From NCBI RefSeq assembly GCF_001294205.1, contig NZ_LAQT01000009.1:1-64000 (forward strand): a DNA stretch of 64,000 nt. Direction: 5' to 3'. A program made the position numbers and the translations under genes. This DNA is from Amantichitinum ursilacus. GTDB lineage: Bacteria; Pseudomonadota; Gammaproteobacteria; Burkholderiales; Chitinibacteraceae. The stretch's first letter is position 1, and every line of letters starts with the position of its first letter. Shown here piece by piece: positions 58,117 to 64,000 of the stretch. The notes below the pieces were generated by a model. The model did no database searches and was not told the origin of the DNA. It saw nothing but the letters and a program-made list of their open reading frames with translations.

Positions 58117-58123
58117 AACTCGC

Positions 58124-58206
58124 AAAAAAACAAAGCGCCCGGAGCCATCTAGAGGCGCCGAGCGCTTTTAAGTGCGTGGCGGACCCGGCGGGAGTCGAAT
58201 CCCGGG
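58124..58206. repeat. Left att-like repeat: displaced ssrA terminator and 3' end
   Basis: 58124-58170 repeats the terminator of ssrA (stem GCGCCCGG...GCGCT with an A run) and 58177-58206 repeats the tmRNA 3' end (TGGCGG, then CGGCGGGAGTCGAA). The matching right copy is 63839-63921. Several substitutions are spread through the left copy, so it is no longer functional RNA. Confidence 0.85.
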
Positions 58207-59140: not shown

Positions 59141-60709
59141 ATGAATTCACGCAGAAAACTATTGAAAGCCGTACCTGCTGCAGCTCTTAGCGCTATCCTT
59201 CCGCCCGGAATGATGCTGCTCACCAGTGAAAAGGCGGCTGCAGACACGGCACCGACTGTTTATTGGAGCATCACCGAGCAGAACCCCCCGAACACCCGAC
59301 AAACCACATCCGAATTGTTTGGATTCAATGTACCTTGGGGTGATTTTCAGCAGTGGTTTGTTGGGGCTGATAACAAAGTAAAGTCGATAGTTACTGCCAA
59401 CTTGAAAGTTTTCTCGGGCGCCTTGTATCGCTACCCGGGTGGCACGCCATCCAATGCATTTCTCTGGCGCTGGGCTATCGGTAGCACGCATCCGCGGCCA
59501 AGCCAGCCGTGGACATCCAATACTTCACTACCGGCTGATTTCGGGATCGACGAGTTTCTGGCTTGGGTTCGAAATGATCTCCAAGGCAAAGTTGTCTACA
59601 CGCTAAACATGCAAACGTTCGTGGACAAAAACACAAATGTTCCCAAAATGTTTGCAACGCCATCAGATTTTGCCGCCGACGCCCTGGAATTGATGAGCTA
59701 CATTTTGTCCACTGCTAATGGTGATGTGGTCGAGTATTGGGAGCTTGGCAACGAGTTGGACGCCAGCCCATCGTGGCCGGGGGCAACCTATGCCGCTTAT
59801 GCGGCAGAGCTTATTAAACAAGCAAATCTGTCTACAGACGCGAAAATCAGAGCGGCAAAGATTGTGATCCAAACCGCTACAAATATCGGTGGCGCCACCC
59901 ATCGCCAAACATGGAATGCGGACGTCAAGAACACTTTGGCGCAGTTGGGCCAGTCTCCCGATGCCATCTCCGCTCATGAATATTATGAAATGCCGGGCAC
60001 TACGGCGGACATGTACGGGATGTTGACTGATATTGGTATTGCAACGGCTCAGTGGCCTAATACGCCTTTACTTGTCACGGAACACGCGATCGACCTCGGC
60101 ATATACGATCAAACAACGGCAATACATAAATATGCATCAGCAATGGAGGGGGGCATAGCGGCCGCCGACTTCACAATGCTCGCACTTTGGTCCGGCTGGG
60201 CCGGTGCAAACTGGCACGCGCTGGAGCACGGTGCAGCTTGGGAGCTGTTTCATATCACTGCGGATAGTACGAAGACAATCTATCCGTCCGCCATTCTTCC
60301 CTCGTTAGTAGCTCTCCGCCTAGGTGTGCCCGTTGGGGGAAGACTCGTAAATCACGTGGTGCTGAAAAATAGTACTTCCACCTACCCGTACGCGCAGCAT
60401 CTTATGGCGTTTATGGACAGCACCGGGACGAAGATGAGTGTTGTCGGGGTCAACCGATCCGCCGCGCCAATCAGCCTTAAGCTCGCCTGGCCGAATATCA
60501 ACCAGTCTACAAAGGTGAACATTTATATCGCTTGGAATGCGGCACTTGGCACCGTCACCGATGCGTCCGATAACACTGATACAGTGCAAGACTATGTGAC
60601 AGTGATCCAATACCTTCAAACAGTCACTCACCTAATGGAAGTTAGCGGTGACCAGACCGTTACGCTGCCTATTCCAGCAAAAAGCGTATTTGCGCTAATT
60701 GCGATCTAA
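59141..60709 (+). CDS. Tat-exported clan GH-A glycoside hydrolase-like protein
   Basis: 522 residues. N-terminal SRRKLLKAVPAAALSAILPP is a twin-arginine-type signal. RYPGG near residue 97, YWELGNELD near 198-206 (acid/base Glu about 204) and LLVTEHAID near 310 (nucleophile Glu about 313) are the arrangement of clan GH-A enzymes such as GH51, GH39 or GH79. The C-terminal 150 residues form a beta-sandwich-like region. Substrate not inferable. Base composition is clearly lower in GC than the core window, in keeping with transfer. Confidence 0.75.
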   Translation: MNSRRKLLKAVPAAALSAILPPGMMLLTSEKAAADTAPTVYWSITEQNPPNTRQTTSELFGFNVPWGDFQQWFVGADNKVKSIVTANLKVFSGALYRYPGGTPSNAFLWRWAIGSTHPRPSQPWTSNTSLPADFGIDEFLAWVRNDLQGKVVYTLNMQTFVDKNTNVPKMFATPSDFAADALELMSYILSTANGDVVEYWELGNELDASPSWPGATYAAYAAELIKQANLSTDAKIRAAKIVIQTATNIGGATHRQTWNADVKNTLAQLGQSPDAISAHEYYEMPGTTADMYGMLTDIGIATAQWPNTPLLVTEHAIDLGIYDQTTAIHKYASAMEGGIAAADFTMLALWSGWAGANWHALEHGAAWELFHITADSTKTIYPSAILPSLVALRLGVPVGGRLVNHVVLKNSTSTYPYAQHLMAFMDSTGTKMSVVGVNRSAAPISLKLAWPNINQSTKVNIYIAWNAALGTVTDASDNTDTVQDYVTVIQYLQTVTHLMEVSGDQTVTLPIPAKSVFALIAI

Positions 60710-60811
60710 AGCACCGTTTTAAACGCTGCAGCACCTCCGTAGACGAGTGTGGGGGCGCCTTATTTGTCTATAAATTTGACGAGGGCAGCGGTGAAGTAAC
60801 TTGCAAGCCGA

Positions 60812-60846
60812 AAAACAAAGCCCGCTGCGAAAGCGGGCTTTGTTTG
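60812..60846. terminator. Bidirectional terminator after the glycoside hydrolase
   Basis: AAACAAAGCCCGCT pairs with AGCGGGCTTTGTTT around a GCGAA loop, with A and T runs outside. Confidence 0.9.
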
Positions 60847-61123
60847 CGCAACTGCCATCGAGCTGAAACTGCGTCTAAGCTAGCTCCATTAGTCTTATTC
60901 CCGAAACTCCAGAAAAGCGCCCAACTCTTTGAGCGCTATGGCAAAGCAGCTGAGGCAGGACGCAATGTGCTTCGTTATCACAGATGGGATGGCAACCCGC
61001 TCGCAGAATCACGAAGTCCAAACAGTGATCTGGCACAGCAAACGATAGCCGGGCTGCGGCAGTCTTAGCTTTGTCGTATCAACGCCAATCGTGGGACTGC
61101 CGCTTTTCTCATTTTGCTGATAG
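60847..61123 (+). pseudogene. Decayed leader fragment, copy 1
   Basis: A short reading frame contains LFPKLQKSAQLFERYGKAAE, then stops at 61068. The DNA at 60892-60960 is repeated at 63383-63445. Reads as a remnant of the upstream part of a toxin gene. No start with a ribosome site is visible. Confidence 0.4.
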
Positions 61124-61189
61124 GCGTTAGGCGCATCGGTTTTCATAGCCGAGTTCTGGCCGCCCGCAAGCGTTGCATCTTCCCGGCCG

Positions 61190-62203
61190 TTGGACCAAGG
61201 CCCGCCGCTTATACAAGCGGACTTGCAAACCCCTGAACGGGTACTTATAGAAAAGCCAGTTGATCAAGCGATCAATCCAGGAGGGTGGTACGTCGGATAC
61301 AACCCTTCCACGCGCCAAAATGTAGTGGATGAGCCGATCATTGTTACCGCCCAACGGCCCAGTTTCTGGCAACGGCTTGAATCTTCGTTAGAAAATTTTG
61401 CGGAGTCTGCGCTCGATAGCGCCGAGGCTTCCGCATCGGGAGTGGCGTCGTTCGTATACGACCAATTTTATCTGGCCGCTCATATGATCTCTAACGGGAT
61501 CATTGATGATCAAGGCGCCGCTTCGCGAAATATAGAGCGAGTACAGACATTCCCGGACATGGTGGGGAACGCGGCAACCATACCGGGCAAGGCCATGTAT
61601 TATGCCGCTCACCCGGATGAAATCACTGCCGAGCAGGCCGGCGCGATTACAGGTGATGCAGTTGCAACACTGTTGGGGGGAAAGGTTTTAGGCACCCTCA
61701 ATGGCGGCGTCGGGGCGGCTGCCAAAGTTTCTGAAGGGATGTTGACTCCACGCGAGGTGGCAGGCCCAATCGGTCGAGAGGCCATGGCGACAGATAGCAT
61801 AGAGGCTCCGTTTAGCCCTATCGTAGACGGCGGCGGCTTGCAGGCCCATGAAAATGCCGGCGGCCACCTGCTGCTGAAGCACGTTGGTCAAACTGAGCAA
61901 GACCTCATGACGCGCCTGACGAACGAGCCGAAGATCAGCGGTTCGTCTTCGTTCTATGACCGCGCGACGGCGGAAAGCGCGGTATCCCAAGCGCTGGATG
62001 CAAACCAAACCACGATTTCGGATTGGCTGAATGGCACTTCCGGTCGTTTACGCATTGATTACACCCTTCCCGATCCAGTTGGCATCTCCGTCTCTCGCGG
62101 AGCGACAGGTGCTGTTGATGTGAATTCGTCCCGGATCATTCTGGTGCGCGATCCATCAATGCCGACCGGATACAAAATTCTTACTGGATTCCCAACAAAA
62201 TGA
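61190..62203 (+). CDS. CdiA-CT RNase A-like toxin, N-terminally truncated
   Basis: 337 residues from a TTG; the frame is open from 61124 without an ATG, so the true start is uncertain and the protein looks cut off. Residues 1-210 are a variable linker (DEPIIVTAQRPSF, GMLTPREVAGPIG). From about 215 comes the bacterial CdiA-CT RNase A domain: ENAGGHLLLKHVGQTEQDLM, SSFYDRATAESAVSQAL, LRIDYTLPDPVG and RDPSMPTGYKILTGFP. Family members are tRNA/RNA-cleaving toxins delivered by contact-dependent systems. Its stop overlaps the immunity gene by 4 bases. Confidence 0.8.
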   Translation: MDQGPPLIQADLQTPERVLIEKPVDQAINPGGWYVGYNPSTRQNVVDEPIIVTAQRPSFWQRLESSLENFAESALDSAEASASGVASFVYDQFYLAAHMISNGIIDDQGAASRNIERVQTFPDMVGNAATIPGKAMYYAAHPDEITAEQAGAITGDAVATLLGGKVLGTLNGGVGAAAKVSEGMLTPREVAGPIGREAMATDSIEAPFSPIVDGGGLQAHENAGGHLLLKHVGQTEQDLMTRLTNEPKISGSSSFYDRATAESAVSQALDANQTTISDWLNGTSGRLRIDYTLPDPVGISVSRGATGAVDVNSSRIILVRDPSMPTGYKILTGFPTK

Positions 62204-62499
62204 CATACCAAAATATAGAGGCGCTTGGGCAGTTGCTCGGTTGCTATTTCCATCAAGACTGGACAGATGAATTCGATAGTGACGAGGCTGCCTTTCAGGT
62301 GATTGTTGACTCGGAGCCGAAGGAGCGGCTATTGGCTGGGGTGAAGGAGATAGATGCTCTGTTGGCGGCATCTTTGCCGGAAGATGAGCTTCGGTCGCTC
62401 ATGGCCGAGTCTGCTGGTTGCTACTTTGATCCTGGTTCTGAAGGTCTCACCTATGAGCAATGGCTGAAGCGGGCTAGACAGAAATTCGCGCAAGCATAG
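62200..62499 (+). CDS. CdiI-type immunity protein
   Basis: 99 residues. LGCYFHQDWTDEFDSDE, IDALLAASLPEDELRSLM and ESAGCYFDPGSEGLTYEQWL match the small acidic CdiI family that pairs with RNase A-like CdiA toxins. The ATGA overlap with the toxin gene gives tight co-production. Confidence 0.85.
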   Translation: MTYQNIEALGQLLGCYFHQDWTDEFDSDEAAFQVIVDSEPKERLLAGVKEIDALLAASLPEDELRSLMAESAGCYFDPGSEGLTYEQWLKRARQKFAQA

Positions 62500-62548
62500 C
62501 GATTCCATCCGCTGTGCTGCGAATAGTCTGGTGAATCCGCTTCAAGAA

Positions 62549-62577
62549 TTCGCCCGCCTCGCGCGGGCGTTTTTACA
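62549..62577 (+). terminator. Terminator after the immunity gene
   Basis: CGCCCGC, loop CTCGC, GCGGGCG, then TTTTTA. Closes the toxin-immunity unit. Confidence 0.85.
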
Positions 62578-62579
62578 TC

Positions 62580-63180
62580 CGGCGTCGGCACAGCCTGCAG
62601 GCTGCGTCCGCGTGTTCACAGATTGTTTCGGTCTGTTCCGCTGCTGCTGATAAACGGTTGCGGGATGTTCATATCCCGTTGCGCTTTGTAGATGCCGTGC
62701 TGCGGCCTGCTTCCTTTTTGCTCACCACTTGGTGACGATTTGCTTACCATTTGCTTCGGTGCGAATGGCGCGCCGCGACATCGCCCGAATCCAGGTGTGG
62801 GCCACATCTGGCATCCTGCCCAGCACGGTGAGGTGGTCAATGTGGTAAATCTGCGGGATATTTACGGCGAGTGTCCGACGTGTGTGGCATCAAACCGCGA
62901 CAGGCCCCCAGCTCGGGAAACGTTCATGAATCCGTTCAGAGATCGGCGATCAAAATTCTGGGGAAGGATGCCAGATGTGATCACAACAGCGAGCTGTTGC
63001 GATGACACCATGCCAAGCCACTCGGTCGCGTTGCGTCCGTCGCGGCCTGGCCCTTCTGGTTGAAACTCAGGCTGTGCCCGAGACCCGTGGTGAACAAAAG
63101 GTCGCCTTTATTGACTTTGATCACAAACGCTTTGCCGGCTTTTTTCACGATGGTCACGGCTGAAGCGCTATGTCCCTGAC
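62580..63180. other. Gene-poor decayed DNA
   Basis: No convincing gene. Short frames exist on both strands (62692-63063 plus, 62616-62840 minus), but codon use and residue content look random and no ribosome site is present. Probably relics of lost cargo. Confidence 0.5.
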
Positions 63181-63186
63181 GGGTGG

Positions 63187-63600
63187 GTGGGGGAGCTTGT
63201 GGACTTCGCCAATACCTACCCGAAGAGGTGTTTCCTGTTGCTGAAAGACAGGGAATATGAGGGAGACGACGCCGACGCGGGCATTGGCGAGCGACCCGGT
63301 ACGGCCGTGATGAAAGACGGCAAAGCCGTCGCCGTTGGCGATAGGATGCGCCAGCTCAAGCGCGCGGAATGCGCGCATGGCACAACGTTATTTCCTGAAA
63401 TTTCAGAAATGCGCCTAATCCTTTGGGCGCTATGGCAAAGGCGGTAAGGCGTATCGGCTTTCATAGCCGAGTTCTGGCCCGCACCGGCTTTATGCCGCGC
63501 TGCTCTGTGTTTGTTTGTGGTTCGTTCTATGGTTGGCCTATATCCGTTCTACGAACAGATCTGGAACAGACCGATGCGGAAATCGGCCTTGTCGGCCAAA
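63187..63600 (+). pseudogene. Decayed leader fragment, copy 2
   Basis: A frame of 86 residues (LVDFANTYPKRCFLLLKDRE, then DGKAVAVGDRMRQLKRAECA) has the short-strand pattern seen in PAAR-like or toxin N-termini, but I cannot assign it. From 63383 the DNA repeats 60892-60960, and 63448-63480 repeats 61126-61160, here without the 170 bases that separate them in copy 1. Frameshifts break the coding sense. Confidence 0.4.
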
Positions 63601-63838
63601 TCCCGGCTGAATCAATAATTTGGATGGGAGTGCGGAAGGCCCGCGTCCCTCGCGTTCCTTCCATACCCCACGCAACTTGTCGCTTGCCGCGCCAATCCGC
63701 TCCGGCGCTCGCCTGGCTGTGAATGTCACTATGCCGTTACTGTAAATCGCTGGGAATGTGTCTAACTGCCGGGTGCGAATTCTGTGCGATAGGGTGGGTG
63801 GAACGAGCGGCAAGTGATGCAACAAAGCCGCAAACCCA

Positions 63839-63890
63839 CAAAAACAAAGCGCCCGGAGCCATTCAGGGGCGCCGAGCGCTTTCAAGTGTG
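63839..63890 (-). terminator. ssrA terminator (start of right repeat)
   Basis: On the minus strand AAAGCGCTCGGCGCC pairs with GGCTCCGGGCGCTTT, followed by GTTTTTG. It is the intact version of the stem found at 58124-58170. Confidence 0.85.
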
Positions 63891-64000
63891 TGGTGGATCC
63901 GGCGGGAGTCGAACCCGCGTCCGGAAGCCCTCTACGAAGAGTTCTACATGCTTAGCCGTGTCTACTGGATTTAACCTTTGACGAGCCGACGGGCAGGCTT
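63891..64000 (-). ncRNA. ssrA: tmRNA, 3' part
   Basis: Reading the minus strand, the segment ends GGTTCGACTCCCGCCGGAT then CCACCA, with the T-arm and acceptor of tmRNA and the conserved GGCTAAGCATGTAGA upstream. The gene runs off the window at 64000. It rescues stalled ribosomes. Its 3' end is the right boundary of the island, as for many elements that use ssrA as attB. Confidence 0.93.

Follow-up and report, generated by a model that had tools for sequence, protein, structure and literature searches.

The toxin and immunity genes

The window analysed here, the first 64,000 nucleotides of a 372-kb contig (G000:C9) in the 4.93-Mb draft genome of Amantichitinum ursilacus, carries near its right end a plus-strand frame that runs from stop to stop at 61124-62203. 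It encodes a truncated pre-toxin region (61124..61825) followed by an RNase A-like toxin domain (61826..62203), annotated here as an orphan C-terminal toxin (CT), and a CdiI_2 immunity gene follows on the same strand (62200-62499). The 359-codon toxin frame is not a chance opening, as shuffling the surrounding islet, described below, 300 times produced no open frame longer than 284 codons.

In a Pfam profile search, residues 225-335 of the toxin matched PF18431 (RNAse_A_bac) with 106.9 bits (cut-off 27). The match is complete, covering model positions 1-113 of 113, and occupies the last 111 residues of the frame. The solved structure of the Yersinia kristensenii CdiA-CT (5E3E, chain B) aligned with the toxin over the full length of the domain at E=1.1e-33, and from this 1e-33 match we infer an RNase A-type fold. 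A structure prediction of the toxin, which the initial annotation had proposed as a check, gave a strand and helix order resembling that listed for 5E3E, with a pLDDT (42.6) too poor for a fold search. The active site of the Y. kristensenii CdiA-CT consists of H175, R186, T276 and Y278 (PMC9086364), which spacing fixes as residues 8, 19, 109 and 111 of 5E3E chain B. Our toxin keeps the equivalents of H175, R186 and T276 and has Phe in place of Y278; the same Phe is found in the copy from Dyella tabacisoli, the closest full-length carrier. Relative to the Dyella copy the toxin domain shows a dN of ~0.12 and a dS of ~2.0, and relative to the remaining relatives dN is similar while synonymous sites are saturated. 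These values argue that the toxin family has been under long constraint and purifying selection, and they show no obvious damage in our copy; they are no proof of use in this strain.

The immunity protein matched PF18593 (CdiI_2) with 98.1 bits (cut-off 26.7, Pfam profile search) and the immunity chain of 5E3E (chain A) at E=1.7e-10, and it is 58% identical to the product of the gene that follows the Dyella toxin. Its start codon and the toxin stop share four bases (ATGA). Both the RNase A-like C-terminus and the neighboring CdiI gene with its 4-base overlap, as named in the initial annotation, are thus borne out by profile matches and by sequence matches to the solved complex. Because the immunity gene has no Shine-Dalgarno sequence of its own and overlaps the toxin stop, immunity in the absence of toxin translation is not assured.

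An islet at the 3' end of ssrA

The tmRNA gene ssrA occupies the right edge of the window, on the minus strand, and extends rightwards from ~63891 (Rfam RF00023, 63891-64000). The 3' end of this gene with its hairpin (63837..63916) recurs at 58123..58202 as a displaced, att-like copy of the ssrA 3' end plus downstream hairpin. The two segments form an 80-nt direct repeat with 89% identity, and 58123-58202 is the only second copy of the ssrA 3' end in the genome. With this repeat at both ends, 58.2-63.9 kb (5.7 kb) is therefore read as an islet at ssrA, a gene known to be favored by islands (PMC4131195). An empty insertion site is not demonstrable because, although ssrA was found in 42 of 43 genomes of the family, none of the 12 family genomes checked has the same islet-side ssrA neighbor.

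Outside the toxin unit, the islet carries a plus-strand gene (59141..60709) for a 522-aa glycosidase-like protein with a Tat-like signal, which weakly matches the NCBIfam family ArfA arabinosylfuranosidase (3e-7, below the family cut-off). A strong hairpin lies past this gene at ~60813-60846. The islet open reading frames tested gave no family match to an integrase, tyrosine integrases included; the islet is possibly a remnant that is non-autonomous or decayed. A plasmid origin was rejected, as no DNA match was found in plasmids and the distant protein matches were confined to Pantoea and Rhizobium; a phage origin was likewise rejected, with no match in phages or viral contigs.

Within the islet the toxin cassette is flanked by an imperfect 88-bp direct repeat. 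The copy to the right of the cassette is unsplit (63392..63479), while the left copy (60898-61161) is split by 169 bp (60957-61125) that hold a terminator-like hairpin; its first half (60898..60956) is 80% identical to 63392-63450. Among 399 genomes of the order the repeat was not found elsewhere, apart from a 23-nt match in one of them. That it is the scar of a second, lost cassette is only a guess.

Start and transcription signals

The initial annotation described a toxin frame that opens without a normal start and lacks an export signal or filament domain, and our analysis agrees. TTG 61190 is the first start codon that could be used, and no in-frame ATG, GTG or TTG before the toxin domain has a Shine-Dalgarno sequence at normal spacing. 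The closest candidates are ATG 61739, with GAAGGG directly before it, and ATG 61784, with GAGAGG two bases upstream; spacings of 0-2 nt are too short. No signal peptide and neither of the pre-toxin motifs VENN and DPxGL was found in the frame, and the features of a full-length CdiA (TPS domain, FHA repeats, VENN region) are absent from it. On the plus strand, neither the frame nor the sequence immediately ahead of it contains a promoter-like site that rises above chance.

A few bases upstream of the frame, also on the plus strand, lies a terminator-like hairpin with a T-rich tail (61056..61118), in which a 12-bp stem is followed by UUUUCUCAUUUU (RNA fold -27.6 kcal/mol, z -4.65). Behind the immunity gene an intrinsic terminator (62551..62573, plus strand) has 7 G-C pairs followed by TTTTT (-16.3 kcal/mol, z -3.6). 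Likely transcription stops therefore lie on both sides of the toxin pair. With no start signal and with incoming transcription stopped upstream, the toxin would normally not be made.

We weighed this silent state against a cytosolic toxin-antitoxin (addiction) module, as had been suggested earlier, in which initiation at an internal codon such as ATG 61739 or ATG 61784 would yield a short RNase that the coupled CdiI neutralizes, and the module would keep the islet in the population. Such behavior has a precedent in Salmonella, where orphan Rhs toxins act as cytosolic toxin-antitoxin pairs through internal promoters and a CTG start (PMC7043789). The complete conserved toxin domain lies behind both ATG codons here and the ATGA overlap couples it to immunity; however, the Shine-Dalgarno spacings are too short, a promoter-like site is missing and the terminator-like hairpin stands ahead of the frame. 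We consider an addiction module possible but unlikely, and nothing found favors it over the silent state. A more specific proposal, in which a mobile islet at ssrA would turn a detached pair of contact toxin and immunity protein into a cytosolic addiction lock of its own through internal initiation of a short RNase A-type toxin, replacing a classical toxin-antitoxin system, appears very unlikely.

Relatives of the cassette and their carriers

The toxin finds its nearest relative in D. tabacisoli (L014 8001-8698), where an Rhs/YD-repeat LysM protein has as its tail a toxin 82% identical to ours. In Dyella the RNase A domain forms the C-terminus of a YD-repeat/LysM frame at least 2782 aa long, and a displaced Rhs tail follows the toxin/immunity pair. 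The earlier label of a CdiA toxin is too narrow, since the closest carrier is an Rhs/LysM protein. Homology to the Dyella protein begins abruptly at 'PFSPIVDGGGLQ', a sharp onset that fits module swapping.

Upstream of this point, the pre-toxin region contains a 'DEPIIVTAQRP' motif and offers no start with a ribosome-binding site. It is 33-35% identical to the pre-toxin of a protein from another species (G271), the tail of which is different and unrelated. A frameshifted copy of the region is present in one member of the family (G014), and no further relatives were found in 369 genomes of the class. A pre-toxin shared with a protein that carries another tail reflects the modularity usual in polymorphic toxins.

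Copies of the RNase A toxin also occur next to a CdiB-like gene in an orphan array of Caballeronia and as part of short proteins (L045, L046) that seem to have a signal peptide. In Marinobacter halophilus (L016 6774-8405) an S-type pyocin domain is fused to the RNase A toxin domain, and the gene lies between type I restriction-modification genes. In a prophage (L049 6211-7143, G114:C67) an RNase A-type toxin and an immunity gene separate the sheath/tube genes of a contractile tail from the tape measure region; the prophage toxin is possibly a tail-carried or moron antibacterial toxin.

The short carriers, the prophage tail locus and the S-type pyocin would be in keeping with a short but complete effector that has no delivery domain of its own and is loaded onto another machine (T6SS, a phage tail or a pyocin-like carrier). 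All of these carriers, however, possess their own N-terminal start and targeting region, whereas the frame described here has none and its upstream part is a truncated pre-toxin with no recognized adaptor. We therefore regard a loaded effector as very unlikely.

Resident CDI and Rhs loci

The same contig carries a two-partner CdiB/CdiA locus ~9-28 kb downstream of the immunity gene and outside the window, with genes for a TPS protein (71.9-74.5 kb), a ShlB-type CdiB (from 74.3 kb) and a 4374-aa CdiA (77.1-90.3 kb). This locus (71860-98132, L025-L027) looks complete and is followed by additional tail fragments, of which at least one, 788 aa long, is a displaced CdiA tail. The description of the cassette as detached from any CdiA thus holds for its sequence and within the window, and fails at the level of the genome. 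Further CdiA pieces are located at the ends of contigs C19 and C28, and Rhs genes on contigs C1 and C33.

The initial annotation had called for a search of the genome for a long CdiA or Rhs protein with a matching 3' end, and none was found at the DNA or the protein level. At the DNA level, the region 60700-63400 matched nothing else in the 4.93-Mb draft except for the islet's own repeat, and the orphan protein matches resident CdiA and Rhs tails only to background. A query with the LysM-Rhs tail returned a weak, unrelated match and no LysM-Rhs parent in the genome, and a second RNase A toxin was represented by a sub-threshold match only. A parental long gene in the draft was rejected on the basis of these DNA, protein and LysM-Rhs tail searches. 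Since the CDI locus, the Rhs genes and the remaining draft share no DNA with the cassette, the draft shows no homologous tail-swapping partner.

These results bear directly on the suggestion that the cassette is a DNA reservoir from which a full-length effector gene of the same genome could exchange its toxin tail by homologous recombination. Salmonella rhs (PMC3967940) and Yersinia cdi (PMC3150448) provide precedents, and CdiA and Rhs genes do exist in this genome; with neither shared DNA nor tails matching above background nor a LysM-Rhs parent, we find a reservoir highly improbable in this genome.

A probable orphan toxin cassette

Among the readings offered initially, that of a displaced cassette describes the locus best. 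We propose, with a probability of roughly 0.77, that the pair is an orphan polymorphic-toxin cassette that is displaced, probably silent and carried in the ssrA islet. The cassette would comprise part of a pre-toxin and the RNase A-type tail, broken off from the 3' end of a gene for a long secreted effector, together with the CdiI_2-type immunity gene, and the small islet carrying it would have entered at the ssrA 3' end. If fused behind a delivery domain, the toxin is predicted to be an active RNase that the overlapping immunity protein would neutralize. Its benefit today is probably confined to immunity, if it has one at all. What can be read from the sequence itself is the presence and apparent intactness of both domains, the missing start and export parts, the flanking hairpins and the ssrA repeat; a cassette silent in its present form is the most likely reading, and published orphan modules correspond to it (PMC3150448, PMC3967940).

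Orphan modules are described as gene fragments without start signals that are followed by an immunity gene (PMC3150448; PMC9086364), and the fragment found here, with neither start nor export signal and an immunity gene behind it, has this arrangement. It is neither homologous to nor located behind a resident full-length cdiA or rhs. Such homology or placement is common and not universal among published orphans, some of which share only the VENN stretch with the resident gene (PMC3150448), and for this reason we do not take its lack as disqualifying. Speaking against the orphan-cassette reading is that classic orphans are found directly after the cdi or rhs locus of their parent and have a VENN or DPxGL motif, whereas here we find a separate islet, no such motifs and no matching parent in the genome. 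The lack of an integrase among the tested islet frames and of a separate Shine-Dalgarno sequence for the immunity gene also counts against it.

Compared with the orphan cdiA-CT/cdiI modules of Poole et al. 2011 (PMC3150448), the cassette shares a tail fragment without start or export signal and an immunity gene directly after it. It differs in lacking VENN and in not belonging to an array behind a cdi locus, being placed instead in an ssrA islet ~9 kb from a resident CDI locus unrelated in sequence. As in the Salmonella orphan rhs-CT/rhsI modules (PMC3967940, PMC7043789), a truncated Rhs-type tail is paired with an immunity gene, the closest full-length carrier being the Rhs/LysM protein of Dyella; unlike them, the cassette has no homologous main rhs to recombine with and no identified internal promoter. 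The Dyella effector shares with our cassette the ATGA overlap, the 'SPIVDGGGLQ' junction and Phe at 278, while our cassette retains the tail alone, preceded by a different pre-toxin.

The toxin tail and its immunity gene thus travel in a mobile islet away from any delivery gene, and their relatives are found on five delivery platforms of different kinds. The cassette fits the idea that tails move as independent cassettes without changing that idea, and is a sound example of a well-known orphan toxin type.

With the Y. kristensenii CdiA-CT/CdiI pair (5E3E; Batot et al. 2017, as summarized in PMC9086364) the toxin aligns end to end and keeps all but one of the four active-site residues, and the immunity protein is of the same family; the differences are the Phe at Y278 and the lack of an attached CdiA or VENN region. 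Among natural copies of the RNase A toxin, the residue at position 278 is Tyr, Phe or His (L048 6618-7178, L049 6211-6804 and similar short carriers). A His at this position would sit close to the place of His119 in pancreatic RNase A.
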